IMG/VR virus record: IMGVR_UViG_3300012147_000067
Span: 1 to 29,177 of that record
Strand: one strand, 5' to 3'
Length of the DNA: 29,177 bases
From: a virus
The notes under the pieces are model-generated. The model did no database searches and was not told where the DNA came from. It saw nothing but the letters and a program-made list of their open reading frames with translations. This document shows positions 6,001 through 28,905 of the stretch, in pieces (position 1 is the stretch's first letter; every line of letters begins with the position of its first letter). The position numbers and the translations under genes were made by a program.

Positions 6001-7993
6001 CAACACAATTTCTAACTTGGGTATACCCAGTAATGCAGCAGATGCAGCAACCAAACGCTATGTTGATAACACTGCCAGCGGCGGCGACGAGATTCAAGAC
6101 CTGCGATCAGTCAGCTATAACAGTTACCAATCAGGACAAGTATTGTCTTCCACTGGTGCTAAACGCCTTATATTACCTGCCGGCAGTGTTGTAGCAGGGC
6201 CGTATGTTCCCGGAGATGTTATAACCGGATCAGTAACTGGAGCTACAGGTGAAATAGTCGAGGTCATTGAAGAGACAGGATCAGTAGACGGCGACATTGT
6301 TATATTGGTTTACACACCGCTATCAGGAGAATTTAGTGATGGAACTCCTGCTGGTAACTCGCCTGGGCAAGACAGAGCTGAAGTGTTGCCAGCAGGCGCG
6401 CAAGGAATTGTAATAGATGGTCCTGTAGACGAATGGGCTAACGTCTTGGCATCTGCTAGCAGCGATATCAGTATAACAACCAGTCGAGAAGAAATTAACC
6501 TGCAGATTAAAGCAGGAGTTATTGTTAATGCTGATGTTAATGCAAATGCTGGCATAGCACAAAGTAAACTAGCACTTGCATCTGCATCCACAAGGGCAAA
6601 TTCAACAGGCATATCACAAAGTGATCTAGGATCTGCATCATTTGACTCAGCAGTGTTTAATTCAACTACTGGCTGGATTACAATAAACAACGGTGCACTA
6701 AGCATTAACAAACTACAGCGCATATCTAATGGCTCAGTATTAGGTAATTGGAGTGGTGATGACGGTGCTAGTAATATAGACCAGATATCTTTTTCTAATG
6801 TTGTAGCGCAGGGACTTGGTCTAGAGGATAAAGACTTCACAGGTTCCGTACTTGCAGTAGCAAGTGATCCAGGACAAGCACTGATAAGAACTGGTACAGG
6901 TGCATACAGTATTTCAAATGTTACCAACTCTGGCGAAACAAATTCAATACTCAAAACAAATGCCATTGGTAGTATTCAAGTCAACTCCTTAATATTAGGG
7001 GGTAACCCATCTTATGAAATATTAAGCCTTGATACGACCACTGTTCTGTTCAAAACTCCAACGCAGGGTGAAATACTTCGATCAGTAGGGGGCTCACCAA
7101 GTGTAGCACCTACTGTACAGATAGCAGGTGGAGTAAATATTGGAGACTCCAATACTGCACAGTCTGTATTAAAAGCCAACTCTACACTTGCAAGCAAGAA
7201 GGCCATCGGAGTCAATTGGATCTACTCCAGCTTTATAGAAGCACAAAGTGAAAAAGGTGCAGCTTCAACAGGAATATCTATAGGCGCAGCGTCAGGATTA
7301 TCCTCAGCAGGCAGAGTTGCAATAGTAACAGCAAATACTAGTTCAAACACTAGTGTAATTCCGTTTACTTTTAGCTCAGCAGGTGTACTTCCTGATGTTA
7401 CTAACACTTATGATATTGGTAGTAATTCACTAAGATATCGTAATATATATTCAAGTGGAAACTTGTTTGTAAATGGAGCCAGTATTGTTGCAGGTGAATA
7501 CACTGGTAAAGGATTCTTACCAGATGTTACCAACTCCCACGACATTGGCAGCGCAGCATTAAAATATGATAACGTTTACGCAAATATATTTAATGGTACT
7601 GCAACCACAGCATACTACGCTGACCTAGCTGAAAATTATCAAGCTGATGCAGCTTACGAAGCCGGCACTGTTCTAGTATTTGGTGGCGATGCCGAAGTAA
7701 CTACAACTAACCAAAAGGACAACTTTAGAGCTGCCGGAGTGGTATCAACTAATCCAGCGCATCTAATGAACACTGCACTGTCAGGTGATAATGTAGTTGC
7801 TCTGGCACTTCAAGGACGAGTTCCATGTAAAGTAGTTGGCAAAGTTAGCAAAGGAGACATAATTGTTACAAGCGGAATATTTGGATACGGTTGTGTAAAC
7901 AACAACCCAGTTAATGGCACAATGATTGGTAAGGCAGTAGGTGCTAAAAATACCAACGAACGCGGCATTGTTGAAGTAGTAGTAGGAAGATAA
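47..7993 (+). CDS. Giant tail-fibre / structural protein (2648 aa)
   Basis: Very long virion protein, most likely a tail fibre or fibre-associated adhesin that contacts the host surface. Residues about 10-40 carry the module NDGTGDSIRESFRKVNENF, which recurs at the start of the protein at 8844. Two fibre signatures of the type ATK-x-YVDN occur near residues 330 and 2000, the second after SIPLTGDLNAANNTISNLG. A FYVSTDQNGVFRVGRF segment lies near residue 1875. Towards the C-terminus there are two copies of a (Y/H)DIGS...(R/K)Y-x-N(I/V)Y repeat, followed by a terminal domain (about 2524-2648) with YADLAENYQAD and ALQGRVPCKVVG. I know that combination from marine T4-like phage fibre proteins. The ATG lies about 6 bases after a weak Shine-Dalgarno (CGGAG is further upstream). 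It is the first of a run of structural genes. The exact virion position and receptor cannot be read from the sequence. Confidence 0.85.
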   Translation: MARQGVDIGVEGNDGTGDSIRESFRKVNENFQELYAVFGIGGQISFTDLSDTPDSYLDNENKIPAVRPDGSGLSFLELVSDGYDGEAVNTIGFDFSVDGKVIVRQLVSRVSNDPEPSLSGPLNAATQPIAGVTVSQAAIDTFNSVYNTDYTVGDLVINKSFADRNYQTKTVPGGGVRLPDEPDTISQYTLTASGLDQGSLVIVDHGLSDAFNGAGFVFNSTETDPNNVTSGGDVYIRIKNKDTISLYGSQQAALDGSGRILLAGGTGVFTITDAALDLALEGNWLDNIALPRKSIVRRQGDTMEGILNLSDHPGDLAGTGLPNGLDDLQAATKLYVDNASAASTVNLYVTTVGDDSQKNTPDGKQGRSPAYAYKTVNAAAEKAEEIIQAAPFEPGPYVQTVTYNSGATDGIVVSQGITPTIVNRINARQLITLNKEFVSKEVTAYIDATYPEFAGRYNTSTCERDVEYILDSVSLDALLGNNANYLSRWAGIRYFSNASASAAIGSQRLYTLAGINYARNLVVNYILTNTAPPVQYQDRVDQVIDNTIIPDSAADETIDAKFNVLLDVINQGVLNAPTIVDGLTNYKINISNGNYGFIDQANPLNADIIPGKVIRGKSSGAVGRIVDYKNESGDRAVSLAETDEVEVQLLEPIEFQDSETLEFGNIVRETQVSIRVETGIYEEDYPIRVSANVSIKGDEFRRVIIRPKKRVSQSRWANLYFYRDAQFDGLVLGRSIIESVSVTNPDDSNRAGGVWRIDNSDWTSNNLGKDAVFEVDVNTSGTVIGVTILNPGVDFVKNELITIPDSALGGSGAAPVILSVSRIPNGVEYVNSLTGEVDGYFGYHYLEKPNQQKQIGAGYTNVGSWNTSALALVDNKEFIQEQVAEYLDDQFSIFNNTADKVAYFNGVGKIVDALIKDVRLGSNEFSLEAQGEYYVGQSPNGTVEGIQYIATIANKIIRGQGPDTIYGLDNQYAIDTFNGDTIPDMWSSGIRYRARTVVSNTVSGTTRFYTTTIEHLSGDEFNQTEENNFWREIDGPELVISNLINTIAFAFEPEYSPPLRNNEMDVFLMDNATIIRNVTVQGHGGFMLALDPEGQVLTKSPYIQTGSSFSKSLNKQSFRGGMFVDAFVGNTAVQVSDRVDGSAFRLKIQSFGSQDDPQGLFVRRPQTPCAFYIDGRRFQVNAVTNYDPDLGSAELILDRSSNNGQGFAGLTSQLLTGVDLDAIGDSETQIPITLQTAGNRSILGNDFTQINDLGYGLVVLNGALSEMVSMFTYYCWVSYYAANGGQIRSISGSSCYGEYGLIAEGADPNEIPDVVDLIQDMVQPAKSFTADVVLTVTNPIQLTVGDVVQQANSDAIATVSASTSQTSNGGTGSTTVYLKNSTGIFNTVDQLTLDPQGTASALGSNSVPINVNAIGYGNDVESLSIYVYDMKDVPSNRSEIDLYHPARNVFARYEVANAEKTGEYVGAYLNVGTDISYNYNTGAAATGTATGAIFTIRKTINGGYTATIENGGNDYRVDDSFNITGSLLGGQNGTHDCTIAITAINNTEGNGIITGILVTGTIYIEPTTPTVSNTVYKLNFSTGDSQFSESGLLEEVAFDTIIQYRRNSTHILGDVARAELLTIRPSTAIIFNENPEFVYRSVSFLTSDSLGNELEQDQLQTGFDTSYDYIRLLVDSQRAGESSLSGDGTTKGGTVGDTRIALLAASDFNEIFRLNNNLFTPEGNRPVGWTADSLTPLPSIITWAGKQHYVYNFRGVKTIQGVETEVAPAEDNDYAIVDIEDVGIDINYPLSAEGLAGTTILGNSIVVIRAGLKAGSIGDITVNISTCRVTGHDFLDIGTGGYNSTNYPNVLFGEPEDKNSANEVEERGKGRVFYVSTDQNGVFRVGRFFSVDQGTGTVTFSASIALSDVDGLGFKRGVVVTEFSTDTAMTDNASDTVPTELAVRGYVNRRLGYDAAGNPVSNRLGPGALAPNGSIPLTGDLNAANNTISNLGIPSNAADAATKRYVDNTASGGDEIQDLRSVSYNSYQSGQVLSSTGAKRLILPAGSVVAGPYVPGDVITGSVTGATGEIVEVIEETGSVDGDIVILVYTPLSGEFSDGTPAGNSPGQDRAEVLPAGAQGIVIDGPVDEWANVLASASSDISITTSREEINLQIKAGVIVNADVNANAGIAQSKLALASASTRANSTGISQSDLGSASFDSAVFNSTTGWITINNGALSINKLQRISNGSVLGNWSGDDGASNIDQISFSNVVAQGLGLEDKDFTGSVLAVASDPGQALIRTGTGAYSISNVTNSGETNSILKTNAIGSIQVNSLILGGNPSYEILSLDTTTVLFKTPTQGEILRSVGGSPSVAPTVQIAGGVNIGDSNTAQSVLKANSTLASKKAIGVNWIYSSFIEAQSEKGAASTGISIGAASGLSSAGRVAIVTANTSSNTSVIPFTFSSAGVLPDVTNTYDIGSNSLRYRNIYSSGNLFVNGASIVAGEYTGKGFLPDVTNSHDIGSAALKYDNVYANIFNGTATTAYYADLAENYQADAAYEAGTVLVFGGDAEVTTTNQKDNFRAAGVVSTNPAHLMNTALSGDNVVALALQGRVPCKVVGKVSKGDIIVTSGIFGYGCVNNNPVNGTMIGKAVGAKNTNERGIVEVVVGR

Positions 7994-18378: not shown

Positions 18379-19542
18379 ATGATTCATACTAAAATACAAC
18401 AAATTCTTGCAAGAGAAACTACCAGACAACAGGAAACAATAGAGCTGATAGCCAGCGAGAATTTTGCTAGCCCAGAAGTGATGCAGCTTTGTGGAAGTGT
18501 TTTCACTAACAAGTATGCAGAAGGTTACCCAGGCAAACGCTATTACAATGGCTGTGAATATATTGACGAAATTGAACAGTTAGCAATTGATAAACTCAAA
18601 ACACTGTTTGGCTGCACGTTTGCAAACGTACAACCGCATAGTGGAGCTAATGCAAATACAGCAGCGTTTCAAGCATTCCTCAACCCAGGAGACACTATAC
18701 TAGGTATGGATCTTGCAAGTGGCGGACACCTGTCACACGGATCTTTACCAAACATATCCGGCAAAATCTACAATGCATTCAGCTACGGAGTGGATGCAAA
18801 CGGCTGGATAGACTACAACCAAGTCGAACAGCTTGCTTACCAGCACCGTCCCAAAATGATCATATGTGGAGCTAGTGCATACCCACGACAGATTGACTTT
18901 GTGCGTTTTAGGGACATCGCAGACGCTGTAGGCGCAGTATTACTAGCTGACATTGCACATTACTCAGGTCTAATTGCCGGAGGAGTATATCAAACTCCAG
19001 TAGGACTAGCTGACGTCATTACTTCTACCACACACAAAACCCTACGTGGTCCACGCGGTGGCATAATCATGTGGAATGACCCTGCCTACACTAGAAAGAT
19101 CAACAGTGCAATCTTTCCGGGCACACAGGGCGGCCCGCTGATGAATACAATTGCAGCCAAAGCGCAATGCTTTATTGAAGCAGACACTGTGTCATTTAAG
19201 CAATACGCAGCGCAAGTAGTTAACAACGCTAGAATAATGTGTGACGTATTTAACAATCATGGTATTAAAACATTGACACACGGTACAGATTCTCATATAA
19301 TACTACTAGACTTAAGTACTAGCAAACTTTCGGGAAGAGCTGCTGCTGACTTACTTGAAGAATGCGGAATTACCGTTAACAAAAACAGCATACCTAATGA
19401 CCCACGCTCCTTTGTTGAGACGTCAGGCATCAGAATAGGAACAGCAGCAGAAACGACTCGCGGGCATGGATCGGAATGGTTCTGCCAGCTTGCTCAAAAA
19501 ATAGCAAATATTTTAAAAACTAAAACTAAAACTAAAAGGTAA
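18379..19542 (+). CDS. glyA: Serine hydroxymethyltransferase (387 aa)
   Basis: PLP enzyme that transfers the serine beta-carbon to tetrahydrofolate, giving glycine and methylene-THF, the one-carbon donor used by thymidylate synthase. Diagnostic motifs: IELIASEN (21-28), NKYAEGYPGKRYYNG (44-58, with the catalytic Glu48), VQPHSGANAN (84-93), DIAHYSGLIAGG (about 194-205, PLP-contacting Asp and His) and TSTTHKTLRGPRGG, where Lys220 is the PLP lysine. TVNKNSIPNDPRS and SGIRIGTAAETTRG near the end are canonical apart from Ala for Pro in GTPA. It is about 30 residues shorter than the E. coli enzyme (417), partly at the C-terminus, which ends in a KTKTKTKR tail coded by a hexamer repeat. All active-site residues I checked are present, so it is probably functional. 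It starts immediately after the upstream stop. Confidence 0.93.
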   Translation: MIHTKIQQILARETTRQQETIELIASENFASPEVMQLCGSVFTNKYAEGYPGKRYYNGCEYIDEIEQLAIDKLKTLFGCTFANVQPHSGANANTAAFQAFLNPGDTILGMDLASGGHLSHGSLPNISGKIYNAFSYGVDANGWIDYNQVEQLAYQHRPKMIICGASAYPRQIDFVRFRDIADAVGAVLLADIAHYSGLIAGGVYQTPVGLADVITSTTHKTLRGPRGGIIMWNDPAYTRKINSAIFPGTQGGPLMNTIAAKAQCFIEADTVSFKQYAAQVVNNARIMCDVFNNHGIKTLTHGTDSHIILLDLSTSKLSGRAAADLLEECGITVNKNSIPNDPRSFVETSGIRIGTAAETTRGHGSEWFCQLAQKIANILKTKTKTKR

Positions 19543-19545
19543 ATT

Positions 19546-20949
19546 ATGAATCAATTATGGACCGAAAAGTATCGGCCAAATGATCTAAACGGCTATGTCT
19601 TTAAAGACAACTCGCAAAAAGAACAGATAGAAGGATGGATCAAACAGGGCAGTATTCCGCACCTGCTTTTATCGGGGTCGGCCGGAATTGGTAAGTGCCT
19701 AGCCGGTACCGAAGAAGTTTGTATAGAAATCGACACTGCTACATTGACTTCTTTACAAAAAGAGCAGCTATTAAAATACCAATCAATTGATAAGCATTAT
19801 AAAATACCGATCAAAGAACTTTTCAAAATACTAGAACTGGACGAGATTGAATATAACGTGCCTGTTGTTAGCAAGCACTGTATAAAAATTGATAGCCCCA
19901 CAGGCTATGTACCTGTTAATGGGCTTGTAAAGAAAAGACACACTGTTGCTACTTATGTATTTGATAACAATACAGAACTTAAATGTTCTACAGAACATTT
20001 GGTCTTTAGTAATGGTATTCCTAAGAAGATTAGTAAATGTGACGTAGTAGATACTATAAACGGGCCGGCTAGTATAGTTGGAATGTTATCAGGAGACGAA
20101 CAAGACGTGTATGATGTGGCATTAGACACACCACACCAGTATGTAACACCCAATGGCATTATACATCATAACACTACTCTAGCTAAAATACTAATTAATC
20201 AGTTGGACGTGCAAGATACTGATGTGTTGATTGCTAACGGTTCAAAAGAAGGCAGAAAGATCGAATGGGTTGATAAGCTGATTATGTTTTGTCAGACCAT
20301 GGCATTTGGTGACTATAAAATTGTGCTGATTGACGAAGCAGACTATATGAACATCAACAGTGTGCAGCCTGCCCTGCGTAACCTCATGGAATCATATAGT
20401 GCAGATGTTAGATTTATTCTAACTTGTAATTATCCCAACAAGATTATGCCGGCCATTCACAGCAGGTGTCAGCACCTTCACTTTGAAAAAATTGATCAAA
20501 CAGAGTTTACTGCTCGAGTTGCCGAAATACTTATTACTGAGAATGTAACATTTGATCTTGAAACTATAGATAGTTATGTAAAAGCATACTATCCAGACAT
20601 GCGTAAATGTATTAATACCGTACAGCTAAACTCACAAAGTGGTGAGCTGGAGGCCGCAGCTACTGCCAGCACCAGTGCTGACTTCCACTTGGCAATGACA
20701 GATTTGTTCAAGGCAGGTAAGATTACAGAAGCCCGTAAGCTAGTCTGTAGTCAAGCACAGCCGGAGGAAATGGATGAAGTGTACCGCTGGCTCTATAATA
20801 ACATTGAGCTTTTTGGTGCCAGCGAGCACCAGCAAGACAGTGCAGTGCTAATTATCAAACAAGGGTTAGTAGACCATGCATTGGTCGTTGATCCGGAGAT
20901 AAATTTAGCAGCAACTATGATCAGACTTGCACGTAATCTAGAGAAATAG
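19546..20949 (+). CDS. 44: Clamp-loader ATPase (gp44/RFC-like) precursor with mini-intein (467 aa)
   Basis: AAA+ subunit of the sliding-clamp loader, which opens and loads the processivity clamp at primer ends. The start WTEKYRP (5-11) is the RFC/gp44 hallmark. Walker A is split: GSAGIGK (44-50) is followed by an intein (51-209) and resumes as TT at 210. Walker B is IVLIDEAD (259-266), and the SRC arginine-finger motif is at 306-308. After intein removal the protein is 308 residues, close to T4 gp44 (319). The mature P-loop would read GSAGIGKTT, so the ATPase is inactive until splicing. It follows the SHMT gene by 3 bases. No gp62-type small subunit is seen in the window. Confidence 0.9.
   Translation: MNQLWTEKYRPNDLNGYVFKDNSQKEQIEGWIKQGSIPHLLLSGSAGIGKCLAGTEEVCIEIDTATLTSLQKEQLLKYQSIDKHYKIPIKELFKILELDEIEYNVPVVSKHCIKIDSPTGYVPVNGLVKKRHTVATYVFDNNTELKCSTEHLVFSNGIPKKISKCDVVDTINGPASIVGMLSGDEQDVYDVALDTPHQYVTPNGIIHHNTTLAKILINQLDVQDTDVLIANGSKEGRKIEWVDKLIMFCQTMAFGDYKIVLIDEADYMNINSVQPALRNLMESYSADVRFILTCNYPNKIMPAIHSRCQHLHFEKIDQTEFTARVAEILITENVTFDLETIDSYVKAYYPDMRKCINTVQLNSQSGELEAAATASTSADFHLAMTDLFKAGKITEARKLVCSQAQPEEMDEVYRWLYNNIELFGASEHQQDSAVLIIKQGLVDHALVVDPEINLAATMIRLARNLEK
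19696..20172 (+). mobile_element. Mini-intein in the clamp-loader Walker A motif (159 aa)
   Basis: In-frame insertion that starts at Cys (CLAGTEEVCIEI, N-terminal block A) and ends at the dipeptide His-Asn (GIIHHN, block G), followed by Thr as the +1 nucleophile. All residues needed for standard splicing are present. Block B is LKCSTEHLVFSNG (T-x-x-H) and block F is YDVALDTPHQYVTPNG. At 159 residues there is no room for a LAGLIDADG or HNH homing endonuclease, so it is a mini-intein that can splice but not mobilise itself. Extein reading frames join as Lys-Thr-Thr, restoring Walker A. Confidence 0.92.
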
Positions 20950-20950
20950 G

Positions 20951-20979
20951 TTGACGCTCCTTCCTTGTGAGCTTATACT
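20951..20979 (+). promoter_or_regulatory. Sigma70-type promoter (TTGACG, 17 bp, TATACT)
   Basis: The -35 TTGACG (20951-20956), a 17-base spacer and the -10 TATACT (20974-20979) start one base after the clamp-loader stop and lead into the four-gene membrane array, with a leader of about 25 bases. It shares TCCTT after the -35 and a GT...GACA block after the -10 with the promoter at 16668. Confidence 0.72.
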
Positions 20980-21010
20980 GTCAAGACACTAAGCAAACAA
21001 GGAAAGAAAA

Positions 21011-21319
21011 ATGAGAGTATTTAAGAAAACTTGTTCCCTACTCTGGAATGATACCTGCTACGTTTTAAAGGAGGTACTATTACCTTATCTAGGTTATGTA
21101 TGCGCTCTCCTTGTTTTATTAGCATCAATGGTGGGCACACTGAGTTTGCTAATGCATTATACATCATTGTCGGACGCGGGTATGTTTTTGGTAATTGTAG
21201 CCCAATCAATAATTCTACTCGGTGGCGGTTTTTGGATACACGTGGCTTGCCGCAAAGCTAAGACTATGATCATTGCAGAAAACAAAAATCTCATCAACCT
21301 CATTAATGAGACACGATAA
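21011..21319 (+). CDS. Two-helix membrane protein, array member 1 (102 aa)
   Basis: First of four consecutive paralogues. Layout: a short N-terminal amphipathic segment starting MRVFKKT, two hydrophobic helices (about residues 24-48 and 57-80), and a basic C-terminal helix ending in AENKNLINLINETR. The positive charges at both ends predict N-in/C-in topology in the inner membrane. It is the most diverged member in the middle, but the MR(V/F)-x-K-x-T start and the EN-x-x-L-x-N-I tail match its neighbours. A good ribosome site (AAGGAAAG) precedes the ATG, behind its own sigma70-like promoter. Its stop overlaps the next ATG as TAATG. Function is unknown. Confidence 0.65.
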   Translation: MRVFKKTCSLLWNDTCYVLKEVLLPYLGYVCALLVLLASMVGTLSLLMHYTSLSDAGMFLVIVAQSIILLGGGFWIHVACRKAKTMIIAENKNLINLINETR

Positions 21320-21633
21320 TGCGAGTACTTAAAGAAACGATTAAACTGATGAAAAAAGACCTTAGGATTTGGGCTAAAGGTCATTTGGTACCACTTCTTG
21401 TGTTTTTGTTAATTACTGCAACAATAAATGCAGATGCTATTATCACAGCACTAATGGCTGCATTCACTCCTTTTGGCGGTGATGGCGTGTTAATAACTAT
21501 ATTAATTGTAGGCATTATCCAAATATTCCTAGCTACCTGGGCATGGGGCGCATATAAAACAGCAGCAAAGAATGTCAAGAAAGAGAACGACGAGCTGTTG
21601 AGAAACATTAAACACACTAAGTCACGCAACTAA
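21319..21633 (+). CDS. Two-helix membrane protein, array member 2 (104 aa)
   Basis: Paralogue of the genes on either side. N-terminus MRVLKETIKLMKKDLRIW, hydrophobic segments at about residues 24-50 and 56-75, and the C-terminal motif AYKTAAKNVKKENDELLRNI. The second helix and tail (IIQIFLATWAWGAYKTAAK) align directly with member 3 (VTEIFLIAWTNNAYVKARE), showing homology rather than mere shared composition. TAATG overlap with member 1; 24 bases and a ribosome site separate it from member 3. No catalytic motif is seen. Confidence 0.65.
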   Translation: MRVLKETIKLMKKDLRIWAKGHLVPLLVFLLITATINADAIITALMAAFTPFGGDGVLITILIVGIIQIFLATWAWGAYKTAAKNVKKENDELLRNIKHTKSRN

Positions 21634-21657
21634 CACTGAGCTAACAAGGTAAGAGAA

Positions 21658-21963
21658 ATGAAACGAGTATATAAAGAAACAGTAACGCAGATGCAGACAG
21701 ATTTTCAAGAATGGGCTGGAGAATGGCTTAGGCCTATTTGTGTTGTCGTACTATCAATTGCCTTTGTAGTTGCATCTGCAATTGGTCTTATAATCTTATT
21801 ACCATTAACCGCCGGCGGGTTTTCTGTCATAATACTTATACTTGTAGTAGTAGTAACTGAGATCTTTCTAATAGCTTGGACAAATAATGCTTACGTCAAA
21901 GCAAGAGAAAAAATTAAAAAAGAAAACAAAATGCTAATAAACAACGTTAGGTATCCACGATGA
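21658..21963 (+). CDS. Two-helix membrane protein, array member 3 (101 aa)
   Basis: Paralogue of members 2 and 4. N-terminus MKRVYKETVTQMQTDFQEW; long hydrophobic helices at about residues 26-52 and 56-74 with Ile/Val/Leu-rich sequence; tail AREKIKKENKMLINNVR. The ribosome site AAGGTAAGAG precedes the ATG. The stop overlaps the next start as ATGA. Function unknown; both ends are predicted cytoplasmic by the positive-inside rule. Confidence 0.65.
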   Translation: MKRVYKETVTQMQTDFQEWAGEWLRPICVVVLSIAFVVASAIGLIILLPLTAGGFSVIILILVVVVTEIFLIAWTNNAYVKAREKIKKENKMLINNVRYPR

Positions 21964-22289
21964 GATTCGTTAAAACGATACTTCGTGAAATTAGAAATGA
22001 TATAAAATCTATATTTTCACTATTCAACATTAAAGTGATTCTGTTTATAGCAGGTGTCGTTAGTTGGGCAGTGTTCGTAGTTTGGTTCGCTTGCTTTTTA
22101 GAAACTGTTGTTGGACTCCTTCCAGGAGAGGCAGCGCCGGTTTCTATATTTTCGTCTTTGGCTGTTACTGCGCTAATTCTCTGGATCGTAAATATAGTAA
22201 TCCGAGCAAGAAAACGAATCAAATACGAGAATACTCAAATATTAAACACAATAAAAGGAAACACACGTGACCAAAATAAATACAATTAA
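21960..22289 (+). CDS. Two-helix membrane protein, array member 4 (109 aa)
   Basis: Fourth paralogue. N-terminus MRFVKTILREIRNDIKSIF, helices at about residues 24-50 and 58-82, tail RARKRIKYENTQILNTIKGN. The shared EN-x-x-(I/L)-L-x-(N/T)-I end places it in the family despite little other identity. It overlaps the DHFR start by 23 bases, so the membrane array and the DHFR/thymidylate genes appear to be one transcription unit. Function unknown. Confidence 0.65.
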   Translation: MRFVKTILREIRNDIKSIFSLFNIKVILFIAGVVSWAVFVVWFACFLETVVGLLPGEAAPVSIFSSLAVTALILWIVNIVIRARKRIKYENTQILNTIKGNTRDQNKYN

Positions 22290-22767
22290 AGCAATATTAG
22301 CTTGTGATGATCACGGCGGCATAGCAGCAAATGGAGCCCTTCCGTGGCCACATAACTATACAGATATGCGTTGGTACCAAGAGCATACTAAAGGACACGT
22401 TATCGTACTGGGTTCCACAACTTGGTGCGCACCTGATTTCCCCAGGCCAATGCCTCTACGTATAAACGTGTTAGCTACAACTAGGCCAGATGAGTTTCCT
22501 GGTGCGGCCCAATATATTAGCGGCAACATTGCTGATCAAGTGTGCTTGGTTGCTGATGCATTTCCAAATCTAATCACTTGGGTAATAGGCGGCCGCAACC
22601 TAATTGATCAAACACTGGATGTCATTGACGAGTTCTATCTAAGCAGAATTCCAGGTAGTTACGATTGTGACACATTTCTAGATGTTGCTGCTATTGAGGA
22701 CCAGTTTGAGTTAACGTTCCAAGAGGTACATCCTGAGGTTACATTTGAGATATGGAAGAAAAAGTAA
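22267..22767 (+). CDS. folA: Dihydrofolate reductase (166 aa)
   Basis: NADPH-dependent reduction of dihydrofolate to THF, regenerating the folate consumed by thymidylate synthase. Motifs: GGIAANGALPW (17-27, the family G-x-x-G-x-LPW), Asp33 in YTDMRWYQEHT as the active-site acid, VIVLGSTTW (cofactor-binding, with Leu for the usual Met), and VIGGRNLIDQTLDVIDEFYLSRI near the C-terminus. The start is GTG at 22267 with AAAGGA upstream; no later Met fits the domain. Length is typical for bacterial DHFR (about 160). It overlaps the preceding membrane gene and, at its end, the next small gene by 16 bases. Confidence 0.85.
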   Translation: MTKINTIKAILACDDHGGIAANGALPWPHNYTDMRWYQEHTKGHVIVLGSTTWCAPDFPRPMPLRINVLATTRPDEFPGAAQYISGNIADQVCLVADAFPNLITWVIGGRNLIDQTLDVIDEFYLSRIPGSYDCDTFLDVAAIEDQFELTFQEVHPEVTFEIWKKK

Positions 22768-24550: not shown

Positions 24551-24587
24551 TCAAGATAAAAGGAGCCATTGGCTCCTTTTATCTTGA
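24551..24587 (+). terminator. Bidirectional terminator between convergent genes
   Basis: A perfect 17-bp stem (24551-24567 with 24571-24587) with loop ATT, and a TTTT run inside the arm on each strand, sits between the plus-strand gene ending at 24537 and the minus-strand PhoH gene ending at 24599. It can terminate both transcripts. Confidence 0.85.
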
Positions 24588-24598
24588 GTTACTAGGTG

Positions 24599-25321
24599 TT
24601 ATTCGTCTCCGTATATCTCAAGAACTTCCTTAACTGCGTCATGTCTCTCAACGTCTCCTTGTGCAAAACGGACTATGTCCAAATGAGTTAGATCTTTTGA
24701 TTCTAAGAGATTTAGGAAATTAATTAAACCGTTATCTTTAGATCGGTCTGCTTGTGCTAAGTCTCCTGTGACTGCCATATAAGACCCTTGTCCTATGCGT
24801 GTAAGCAACATCTTCATCTGTCTTTTAGTAGTCGACTGACACTCGTCTGCGACTATATACGAGTTTTTAAAGGTTCTGCCTCTCATAAAACCAAGTGGCG
24901 CTATCTCAAGTATACCTTCTTGCATCATTGCTTCTAGCTCTCTTGAATTAAAATACTCACGCAACACATCCATAATAGGTCTTACCCATGGAGCCATTTT
25001 TTCTTCTAACGTGCCTGGCAGTGCACCAATGTCTTCGTCTGTGTCAACTGCTGGTCTAGTAACCACGATCTTGTCAACTTTGCCGTCTTTGAACATTTTT
25101 ACAGCAGCTTGAACTGCTAGCATTGTTTTGCCGGTACCAGCAGGACCTACCCCGAATACAATACTTTTGCTTTCGTCAAGTAGTTTTAGTACGTATGATT
25201 CCTGTGCTATGTTTTTAGGTACGATATGAACTTGCTGTTGTTGTTTGCGTTGATTGATCTCGACTACGTTGCCGAAGTTTTTGCTAGTCTGCTTTTTAGC
25301 AGTATTTCGTTTTGCACCCAT
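24599..25321 (-). CDS. phoH: PhoH-like ATPase (240 aa)
   Basis: P-loop NTPase of the PhoH family, common in marine phages and often linked to phosphate stress, though its biochemical role is unsettled. Walker A is GPAGTGKT (59-66), the TRPAVDTDEDIGALPGTLEEKM segment is typical of the family, and Walker B appears as YIVADECQ (usual IIDEAQ). RGRTFKNS and a GDLAQ sensor (TGDLAQAD) are also present. A strong ribosome site, AAGGAGG, lies 7 bases before the ATG on the minus strand. It is the only minus-strand gene in the window and is divergent from the gene at 25457. No clear promoter could be assigned to it in the 135-base gap. Confidence 0.92.
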   Translation of the reverse strand: MGAKRNTAKKQTSKNFGNVVEINQRKQQQQVHIVPKNIAQESYVLKLLDESKSIVFGVGPAGTGKTMLAVQAAVKMFKDGKVDKIVVTRPAVDTDEDIGALPGTLEEKMAPWVRPIMDVLREYFNSRELEAMMQEGILEIAPLGFMRGRTFKNSYIVADECQSTTKRQMKMLLTRIGQGSYMAVTGDLAQADRSKDNGLINFLNLLESKDLTHLDIVRFAQGDVERHDAVKEVLEIYGDE

Positions 25322-26011: not shown

Positions 26012-26727
26012 GTTTAACCAAAGGAGATCTTAGAGATCTAGTAGACGAGATTATAGAAATAGACTCGTACAAAAGTAAGATGGGCAGTGACGAAGACATT
26101 GTTACTGTTGCGTTCAGTACAATGACAACTGAATCAGCAACGGATCTAGCAGATTTTATAGAAAGAGGATATAGCTTTGTATTAGACGCCGACGCTACGC
26201 CGGGCGAACAAAGTGACGGAACATACAAAGTGTTCGTAGAAATTCAAAGAGACAAGGCAGTGCCGGCACAAATTGAAGAGCTAGTAAACGGTGTTAAAAA
26301 CCTTACTGATATGAAAGAGATTAAGTTTAGATACTATAAAAACTTTAGGAGTGTGCCTCTGACACAGGCTGCGCTAGAAGAAGTTATGCCAGTCGACGCT
26401 GACGAATATGATATCACAGTAAACGAGTCTAATCTAAATAACTATAAGAATTTCTTTAATAGGAGTTTTGTCGAAGACGTTAGTATGCGAGACGACATGA
26501 TAACTATTAAAAAAACATACGCTGATCCTGTTCAATTTAAGTTCATTGACTTTGGTCCTGCGCAGGAAACATTAGACAACATATCAGAATCGTTTAACGC
26601 GAACGACTTTTCAGAAATCATCTTCTTGTCTAAATATATCGGCGACTATAACATTACCAAATACGGTAATAAATTAACTTTTGAGAATGAAAACCATGTA
26701 TTGGTCTTGGAAAGAATTGTTTACTAA
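26008..26727 (+). CDS. Unknown protein (239 aa)
   Basis: No family recognised. Starts in an ATGA overlap with the upstream gene and overlaps the endolysin start by about 30 bases, so the three probably share a transcript. The sequence is acidic with mixed alpha/beta character (FSTMTTESATDLADFIERGY, KYIGDYNITKYGNKLTF), with no signal, membrane helix or obvious catalytic motif. The middle part around KNFFNRSFVEDV is followed by a beta-rich C-terminus. A late role is inferred from position only. Confidence 0.55.
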   Translation: MSLTKGDLRDLVDEIIEIDSYKSKMGSDEDIVTVAFSTMTTESATDLADFIERGYSFVLDADATPGEQSDGTYKVFVEIQRDKAVPAQIEELVNGVKNLTDMKEIKFRYYKNFRSVPLTQAALEEVMPVDADEYDITVNESNLNNYKNFFNRSFVEDVSMRDDMITIKKTYADPVQFKFIDFGPAQETLDNISESFNANDFSEIIFLSKYIGDYNITKYGNKLTFENENHVLVLERIVY

Positions 26728-27586
26728 AAAAGATAATATAGCCGCTGACTTTGCATTTACTTTTAATAGTAATATGCTAGAGGAACTGTTGACTGGAAAT
26801 ACCCACCCAGATGATTGGTTCAAAATAATGTGTAAAGTACTGCCTAAATACGAAATTACTACAGTTGAAAGAGTAGCCGGCTTTATTGCACAATGTGGTC
26901 ATGAAAGCAGAGACTTTAGTGTGCTTACAGAGAACTTAAATTATTCTGCCAGCGCACTGAACAAGATCTTTCCTAAATACTTTGAACGTGCAGGACGTAA
27001 TGCAGCAGACTACCACAGACAGCCAGAAGCGATTGCTAACATAATTTACGCTAACAGAATGGGCAATGGGGATACTGCAAGTGGCGACGGTTGGTACTAT
27101 CGTGGCGGCGGCATATTACAGCTAACGGGATTTAACAATTATAGTCAATTCGGTGCGTACATCGGTATGAGTGCACAGAGTGCGGCTGAGTATGTACGTA
27201 CCAAGGAAGGTGCCTTAGAAAGCGCATGCTGGTTCTGGAAAGAGAATAACTTAAACAGATATTGCGACAGACAAGACATCGTTGGATTAAGCAAGCGCAT
27301 TAACGGTGGCACTCACGGAATGGACGACCGAAAGGCGCGTTACATAAAGGCCACGGACGTACTAGGTGGCGATCTTGAGTCAAGTAACATAAACCTCAAT
27401 GTAATACTAAAAGAAGGTAGTAGAGGACCAACAGTGGCGCTGGTACAAGAAAAGCTAGGCATTACATCCGACGGCATTTACGGCCCGGGTACAGGGCGAG
27501 CAGTCAAGCGTTGGCAGAAAAAAGCAGGACTAGTAGCAGACGGAATTGTGGGGCCGAACACTATTAAGGCATTACTAGGAGAGTAA
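26696..27586 (+). CDS. GH19 endolysin with C-terminal peptidoglycan-binding domain (296 aa)
   Basis: Lysis enzyme predicted to cleave peptidoglycan glycan strands. The catalytic domain (first about 200 residues) has the GH19 pattern FIAQCGHESRDFSVLTENLNYS, where the Glu of HES and the Glu of TENLNYS are the expected catalytic pair, followed by YYRGGGILQLTGFNNY and the RINGGTHGMDDR region. The last 65 residues form a PG_binding_1 domain (LKEGSRGPTVALVQEKLG, DGIYGPGTGRAVKRWQKKAG, DGIVGPNTIKALLG). I prefer the ATG at 26696; ATG 26687 and a TTG at 26681 lie just upstream, within the previous gene. No signal peptide, so it depends on a holin. It is followed after 1 base by the spanin pair. Confidence 0.88.
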   Translation: MYWSWKELFTKKDNIAADFAFTFNSNMLEELLTGNTHPDDWFKIMCKVLPKYEITTVERVAGFIAQCGHESRDFSVLTENLNYSASALNKIFPKYFERAGRNAADYHRQPEAIANIIYANRMGNGDTASGDGWYYRGGGILQLTGFNNYSQFGAYIGMSAQSAAEYVRTKEGALESACWFWKENNLNRYCDRQDIVGLSKRINGGTHGMDDRKARYIKATDVLGGDLESSNINLNVILKEGSRGPTVALVQEKLGITSDGIYGPGTGRAVKRWQKKAGLVADGIVGPNTIKALLGE

Positions 27587-27587
27587 T

Positions 27588-28061
27588 ATGGGATTTAAAC
27601 TTGCAGGTGTATTTGCGTTAGTCATGCTGCTCATGGGCGGCTTGGGCTACTGGTATTACTCAGATAGTCAATCAACAATTGCTACCCTGCAGAAGAATAA
27701 TGCTGTGCTCGAAACATCTTTAGAACTTAGTGAAAGAGCTGTAAATACTCTCAAGTCTAACATTGCAACTGCTAACAACCAAATAACAGAATTGAACGAA
27801 GACTTTGCAGATATTCGATCGCAAAATAACCAGCTGGCTAATAAACTCGAAAAACACGAGTTAGGTGTGTTAGCAAGTCGTAAGCCGGGACTAGTTGAAC
27901 GAGTTATAAACAATGCAACTGAGAAAGCCAGTAGGTGTTTTGAATTATTAAGTGGCGCTGAGCTAACAGAGAAAGAAAAAAACGCAGCGTTAGCAAAAGA
28001 AGCAAACTCTGAGTGCCCGTGGTTGTTTGAAGATAAGGAGCCTGTCAATGAAAGCAACTAA
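27588..28061 (+). CDS. Inner-membrane spanin (Rz-like, 157 aa)
   Basis: Probable i-spanin. It has an N-terminal membrane anchor (LAGVFALVMLLMGGLGYWYY, about residues 4-23), then a long coiled-coil segment (about 28-93), rich in Leu/Asn/Glu/Gln. A C-terminal periplasmic part contains two Cys, in ATEKASRCFELL and SECPWLF. It lies just after the endolysin and overlaps the start of the lipoprotein gene by 14 bases, the standard Rz/Rz1 arrangement. With the outer-membrane partner it would fuse the two membranes after peptidoglycan loss. Family membership rests on architecture and position. Confidence 0.75.
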   Translation: MGFKLAGVFALVMLLMGGLGYWYYSDSQSTIATLQKNNAVLETSLELSERAVNTLKSNIATANNQITELNEDFADIRSQNNQLANKLEKHELGVLASRKPGLVERVINNATEKASRCFELLSGAELTEKEKNAALAKEANSECPWLFEDKEPVNESN

Positions 28062-28449
28062 TGTGCTAGTGCTCGTCCTGGTCGCAACCCTGCTAAGCGG
28101 GTGTAGCTTGTTTACTAAAAAGGTTGACGCTTCGTTTACTCCTATTGCTAAACCAGAATTAGTGTTGCCAGATGCTGATGAGATACGTATGCGCAGTCTC
28201 GAATGGTATATTATTACTCCTGAGAACTATCAAGAAATATTTGAAGAATTAAGACTGTCAGGAGAATCAGTAGTATTGCTAGGTCTGACCAGCAACGGCT
28301 ATGAAAGAATTAGTCTGAACCTTGGTGATATACGTGCGTTCATACAACAGCAGCAAAGCATTATCAAAGCGTACAGACAATACTATATCCAGTCAGAAAA
28401 GACTATGGACGAAATCAATAACAAGATTCAAAAGAGTAACACTGAGTAA
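28048..28449 (+). CDS. Outer-membrane spanin lipoprotein (Rz1-like, 133 aa)
   Basis: Probable o-spanin. The signal peptide ends in a clear lipobox LLSGC (15-19) with Cys19 as the lipidation site. The mature part is about 115 residues, longer than classical Rz1 (about 40) but compatible with unimolecular or longer o-spanin types, and carries a Gln-rich helix (IRAFIQQQQSIIKAYRQYY). I start at ATG 28048 with AAGGAG upstream; the open frame continues to a TTG at 28027 with no site. The overlap with the i-spanin gene supports a pair. An alternative is a phage lipoprotein of another role, for example an exclusion factor. Confidence 0.7.
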   Translation: MKATNVLVLVLVATLLSGCSLFTKKVDASFTPIAKPELVLPDADEIRMRSLEWYIITPENYQEIFEELRLSGESVVLLGLTSNGYERISLNLGDIRAFIQQQQSIIKAYRQYYIQSEKTMDEINNKIQKSNTE

Positions 28450-28590: not shown

Positions 28591-28608
28591 TAACAAGGAG
28601 TGACTATC

Positions 28609-28905
28609 ATGGACAATATGGCAAAATTTGACAACAACGATGACGGTAAACTTACTGCAACTGAGTTTGCTCTCTATAAAGAAAATGAAACACTAATAGC
28701 TGACCTTGCTAAGCAAAATGACCAATCGAAGATGGCGTGGACTGCTATAATGACTATGCTGATTTTCACTGCGTTGTTATTCATGCCGTTTGTAGATGTT
28801 GATCGAGTTGCTGCTCTGGCAGATATGATCGACTTATTCTATCTTGCACAAGCAGGCATAGTAGGTGCATTTATGGGCGCAACCGCTTGGATGAAACGTA
28901 AGTAA
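28609..28905 (+). CDS. EF-hand membrane protein, possible holin (98 aa)
   Basis: Residues 8-19 form a perfect 12-position EF-hand calcium-binding loop: D8, N10, D12, G13, K14, L15 and E19, in FDNNDDGKLTATEF. Two hydrophobic helices follow, about residues 46-63 (WTAIMTMLIFTALLFMPF) and 77-93 (FYLAQAGIVGAFMGATAW), and the protein ends MKRK. The two-helix layout, small size and position right after the endolysin and spanins suggest a holin, but no holin family is recognised. I use ATG 28609 with AAGGAG 8 bases upstream; a GTG at 28600 overlaps the ribosome site. If the EF-hand lies in the cytoplasm or periplasm, Ca2+ could set its timing; this is speculation. Confidence 0.65.
   Translation: MDNMAKFDNNDDGKLTATEFALYKENETLIADLAKQNDQSKMAWTAIMTMLIFTALLFMPFVDVDRVAALADMIDLFYLAQAGIVGAFMGATAWMKRK

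Follow-up and report, generated by a model that had tools for sequence, protein, structure and literature searches.

Why would a T4-superfamily-like phage carry four consecutive genes for small membrane proteins between gp44 and DHFR, and do these genes form one family? In the 29,177-nt stretch of IMGVR_UViG_3300012147_000067 that we analysed in full (the window), the four genes lie on the + strand as P1 (21011..21319, 102 aa), P2 (21319..21633, 104 aa), P3 (21658..21963, 101 aa) and P4 (21960..22289, 109 aa), each encoding two predicted membrane helices. They are flanked on the 5' side by a gp44 clamp-loader homologue (19546..20949, +; an AAA match and a weak Gp44 lid match in Pfam, and tblastn matches to phage clamp loaders) and on the 3' side by DHFR (22267..22767, +; phrog_316). 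The original prediction of a four-gene array at 21011-22289 encoding proteins of 101-109 residues is thus correct in coordinates and sizes. Bases 30953-60129 of IMGVR_UViG_3300012031_000005, read in reverse, match the window from end to end at 100% identity, so we count the two records as one observation; IMGVR_UViG_3300028361_000039 encodes proteins identical to the window's in the region read.

The neighbourhood has features of its own. The gp44 homologue carries an intein-like insert of ~159 residues (CLAG...GIIHHN, residues ~51-209) that splits Walker A (GIGK/TT) and matches Pfam Intein_splicing at E=5e-6, below the curated cut-off; gp44 of two relatives, L003 and L004, is 308 aa long and free of this insert. 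A serine hydroxymethyltransferase gene (glyA-like, 18379-19542) adjoins the gp44-DHFR-thyA genes, and a glyA-like gene also follows thyA in the relative L106, which points to a folate-metabolism cluster. Further on, a PhoH-like gene on the minus strand (24551-24587 and 24599-25321) ends in a 17-pair terminator-like hairpin.

Read directly, the sequences of P1, P2, P3 and P4 carry the proposed end motifs at both termini, with starts MRVFKKT, MRVLKET, MKRVYKET and MRFVKT and tails AENKNLINLI, KENDELLRNI, KENKMLINNV and YENTQILNTI, respectively. BLASTP linked P2 with P3 (E=1e-15) and P1 with P3 (E=9e-7). Because membrane proteins match by composition, we compared Smith-Waterman scores with those of sequences shuffled 1000 times within each region, so that tails, helices and loop were never mixed. 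None of the 1000 region-preserving shuffles reached the real score for P2/P3 (z=14.1), P1/P3 (z=8.2) or P1/P2 (z=6.9), so the similarity beyond composition on which the original prediction turned is present, and P1, P2 and P3 are clear paralogues. For P4 the pairwise scores were lower (P3/P4 z=4.2, with 1/1000 shuffles reaching the real score; P2/P4 z=3.1; P1/P4 z=1.0); against a profile of P1-P3 types it beat 1000 of 1000 shuffles narrowly, with 21.0 bits against 20.1 for the best shuffle, and in hhalign profile-profile comparison it aligned in the C-tail only (68.5%). P4 is probably a remote member of the family, supported mainly by its C-terminal tail, and it may have a separate origin. The proposed paralogue set is therefore upheld, for P4 by way of the profile, whereas the idea that divergence is concentrated in the membrane helices is unsupported between orthologues, since substitutions did not cluster consistently in any one region.

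The family appears to be undescribed. Searches of Pfam, PHROGs, NCBIfam and PADLOC with P1-P4 gave chance-level matches only and assigned none of the four proteins to a different known family. P4 matched TIGR04561 at E=7e-4, below the curated cut-off and over helix and tail only, and P3, alone of the four, weakly matched the holin group phrog_263 (E=0.065); holin families of Pfam and NCBIfam gave no match to P1-P4. As for homology to exclusion proteins, the Pfam scan gave no match to Imm_superinfect (PF14373) at E<=1, and PADLOC none above noise, its one chance-level match (E=0.016) being to a helicase model. A six-frame search of related contigs for the Imm family came back empty, as did its controls, and we give it no weight. 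The best match among PDB sequences had E=0.08, a fold search with the P3 model gave a meaningless best E=3.7, tblastn of P1-P4 and one L014 member against INPHARED (50,697 phage records) returned nothing at E<1, and a search of genome contigs gave no relative. A profile search of 18 related contigs, run without a positive control, found no member, and we found no account of such an array in the open-licence literature. The absence of a described family from Pfam, PHROGs, NCBIfam, PADLOC, PDB sequences and INPHARED agrees with the original prediction; small accessory membrane proteins that phages make early are a known kind, and the unusual part is the paralogue array.

The array was also said to have its own sigma70-like promoter, and TTGACG-N17-TATACT lies at 20951..20979 (+), separated from the gp44 stop codon by a single base. 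A generic scan around the array, which taken alone proves little, found sigma70-like sites without excess (19 against 19.3 expected). The specific class TTGACA-N17-TATACT (<=1 mismatch), to which the array promoter belongs, is represented by 19 sites in the 92-kb contig matching the window, against a mean of 0.8 and a maximum of 3 in order-2 Markov simulations, and 18 of the 19 lie on the same strand as the window's genes. This enrichment makes the array promoter a convincing one. The class also precedes a gp45-like sliding clamp, a FolE-like gene (behind a variant site at 84681 of the 92-kb contig) and many small-protein genes, all named by reading their sequences. We infer from this company that the promoter class is an early one, and that the array is probably expressed early in infection. 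Both hexamers are unchanged in L003 and L004, where two spacer bases differ; L014 has the same 12 promoter bases at 17-nt spacing inside gp44, ~170 nt before its array genes, and the best candidates at the gp44-end position in array-free relatives carry 2-3 mismatches. In a separate place, a perfect 12/12 TTGACA-N17-TATAAT at 19273-19301, inside the glyA-like gene and ~245 nt before gp44, may be the gp44 promoter.

Tight coupling, the next proposed property, stands for the TAATG overlap of P1 and P2 and the ATGA overlap of P3 and P4, but not for P2 and P3, which are 24 nt apart. This gap holds a copy of the promoter-proximal leader: copy 1, ACACTAAGCAAACAAGG, lies 5' of P1 at 20986..21002 (+), and copy 2, ACACTGAGCTAACAAGG, at 21633..21649 (+), with 2 mismatches between them. 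Copy 2 is identical to the post-promoter leader of L003 and L004, and no shuffle gave three matches to the leader motif. Copy 2 thus looks like a trace of the duplication unit, as if leader and gene had been duplicated together. In addition, and absent from the original prediction, DHFR starts within P4, sharing its first 23 nt with the 3' end of that gene, an overlap kept in L003 and L004. From their layout (one promoter, same-strand overlapping or near-adjacent frames and a duplicated leader) the genes may form one transcription unit, and the array operon is predicted to run into DHFR.

Relatives, that is contigs fetched by gp44 and DHFR, place the array in a history. L107-L110 have the order gp44-ferredoxin-DHFR-thyA with no family membrane genes, L106 likewise plus extra genes, and L018, L019 and others have a soluble ORF of 115-119 aa, a candidate ferredoxin, in the ferredoxin position. 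L003 and L004 carry three-gene arrays that lack P1, which occurs only in the window-type lineage. In L014 (IMGVR_UViG_3300010316_000005, 176-kb) the order is gp44, an unrelated two-helix gene, a family member, a ferredoxin (assigned by PHROG match), a second family member, DHFR and thyA; for the 92-kb contig, which is incomplete, tblastn gave no ferredoxin match. The L014 genes at 7171 and 7806 share the junction, the two-helix plan and the tail motif with P1-P4, and both beat all shuffles (HMM E=0.003 and 1.9e-6). These two members, which flank the ferredoxin, are closer to each other (z 10.8; support 93/92 in a tree of 12 family members that is poorly resolved and has P1 as a long branch) than either is to P1-P4, which makes one or more independent duplications likely. 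The copy number among relatives sharing gp44 and DHFR is therefore 0, 2, 3 or 4, and we take the array to be a recurrently duplicated, recombining accessory cassette. We read from the sequence a recurrent duplication of two-helix genes at the gp44-DHFR junction, with a dedicated promoter and a predicted operon into DHFR. The L014 two-helix gene at 6918-7178 was rejected as a family member, as 847 of 1000 shuffles scored at least as well; a further small membrane-protein gene lies near gp44 in L014 (5548-5820). GIY-YIG-like homing endonuclease genes, recognised by reading the sequence, are found at 9514-10323 in L014 and at 45857-46393 in the 176-kb contig G001, one of the two lying between spanin genes.

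Rapid evolution of the array, a further part of the original prediction, found partial support. Between the window and L003/L004, pN/pS was 0.84/0.71 for P2, 0.51/0.40 for P3 and 0.43/0.49 for P4, against 0.24/0.25 for DHFR and 0.08/0.08 for gp44. By Fisher test P2, P3 and P4 each differ from gp44, so that by this measure the array genes evolve faster than gp44, but the difference from DHFR is significant for P2 alone (p 0.009 and 0.016, without correction). All values in this comparison fall below 1 and do not show positive selection; the elevated pN/pS could be relaxed constraint. Moreover, synonymous divergence of P2 and P3 is about a third of the gp44 and DHFR values, and DNA identity, which stands at 0.91-0.98 where gp44 ends and over the greater part of P2 and P3, falls to 0.80-0.84 where P2 begins, so part of the array, the P2/P3 block, was probably exchanged recently.

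By hydropathy, P1 and P4 each have two clear hydrophobic stretches, P2 has two that dominate and P3 has a single unbroken one of 59 residues, and the C-tails of all four proteins are basic. An AlphaFold model of P3 of low to moderate confidence (13-row alignment; mean pLDDT 69, pTM 0.38) pairs two long helices (2-47, 54-98) in a hairpin, and a hairpin fold within the host inner membrane is probable for P1-P4. We hypothesise that the array is an accessory ("moron"-like) early cassette of inner-membrane hairpin proteins, which would insert with N-in/C-in topology (from charge only), leaving their basic tails on the cytoplasmic side. They would build up in this membrane at an early stage of infection, probably form homo- or hetero-oligomers, and either alter the envelope or block one of its proteins. 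As a whole we give this explanation a probability of about 0.4, with topology taken from hydropathy and the P3 model, and timing from the promoter class only. Its more general part, that the array is some sort of early accessory cassette acting on the envelope, is rather likely, given the promoter class, the DHFR overlap, the copy-number variation, a pN/pS above that of gp44 and the recombined block, together with the two-helix plan with basic C-tails, the P3 hairpin model and a separate holin candidate (see below). The likeliest benefit would be superinfection exclusion, in which the proteins halt DNA delivery by competing phages in the manner of the inner-membrane SieA and of T4 Imm, and the paralogues could widen the range of targets; it is our leading guess, and a tentative one. 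A more elaborate version, in which diverged two-helix paralogues of one early operon form a hetero-oligomeric exclusion or takeover system tuned to local competitors or hosts, we regard as doubtful.

Host takeover could also be considered. Here the hairpins would inhibit or redirect a host inner-membrane protein such as a transporter, a secretion or division protein or a membrane-bound defence sensor, perhaps with one target per paralogue. The putatively early promoter, the accessory distribution and the fast protein change are compatible with takeover as they are with exclusion, and the sequence does not separate the two; we consider takeover possible though not probable. Of the functions originally guessed at, superinfection exclusion and host takeover thus agree with early expression, as inferred, and with an accessory distribution, while a primary holin role does not fare as well.

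A holin/antiholin set, with N-in/C-in two-helix paralogues tuning lysis time, would suit the size and predicted topology of the proteins, since class II holins have two helices and lie N-in/C-in (PMC9636201), and the weak phrog_263 match of P3 points the same way. However, the lysis cassette is separate (26681-28449, with the endolysin at 26681 and spanins at 27588 and 28027), 4-6 kb downstream of the array, and has its own conserved candidate, a two-helix protein at 28600-28905 that follows the endolysin and spanins. This protein, which contains an EF-hand-like segment (Pfam E 0.02, below cut-off) and is possibly a calcium-sensing holin or lysis regulator, has a homologue after the spanins of the array-free L025 (12009-12386, E=1e-16), and L014 has another two-helix protein at its post-spanin lysis site. 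The array, by comparison, sits in one operon with DNA-metabolism genes and has their type of promoter, and there are relatives that do without it. We therefore disfavour a primary holin role as improbable, though an antiholin role may still apply; that the array lies outside the lysis cassette counts as supporting evidence only, because not every holin sits in the cassette.

The site between gp44 and DHFR, and the overlap of the last membrane gene with the DHFR start in three lineages, could also suggest a membrane anchor or scaffold whose basic tails would hold complexes of gp44, DHFR or thymidylate synthase at the inner membrane; such adjacency is weak evidence because the operon arrangement occurs without the array, many relatives having the gp44-DHFR-thyA block with no such protein, and we give this role little credence. 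Finally, the pN/pS of up to 0.84 in P2 and the ORFan distribution might reflect weakly constrained accessory genes that do little, persist through selection on their neighbours and are copied by slippage or recombination. Three lineages, however, keep the frames open and conserve the tails and the start/stop overlaps, pN/pS stays below 1 between the window and L003/L004, and the dedicated promoter is retained, which makes this quite unlikely.

If the leading reading, an early cassette of envelope-acting hairpin proteins, is true, the array represents an undescribed early membrane-protein family that is duplicated and swapped at one site of a replication operon, and the 0, 2, 3 and 4 copies at one junction are a natural series for studying the role and multiplication of small phage membrane proteins. 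If it is merely an accessory ORFan set, the junction would still cleanly illustrate a hot spot at which ferredoxin and membrane cassettes take each other's place. Among known systems, class II holins (the phage 21 S type) resemble the array in having two helices and a predicted N-in/C-in topology; unlike them, the array lies away from the endolysin, behind a putatively early promoter, and consists of four paralogues. T4 Imm, a small phage membrane protein made early and predicted to have two helices, is encoded by a single gene and not by a paralogue array; P1-P4 are likewise small with two predicted helices, but match no Pfam family, PF14373 included. SieA of P22 is an inner-membrane protein of 162-164 aa with three predicted helices that is expressed from the prophage (PMC10883804), and compares with the shorter P1-P4 (101-109 aa, two predicted helices). 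SieA types have diverged strongly within one function, to less than 30% identity (PMC10883804), and, compared by description, SieA and P1-P4 are alike in being small, located in the inner membrane (as predicted for P1-P4) and strongly diverged.
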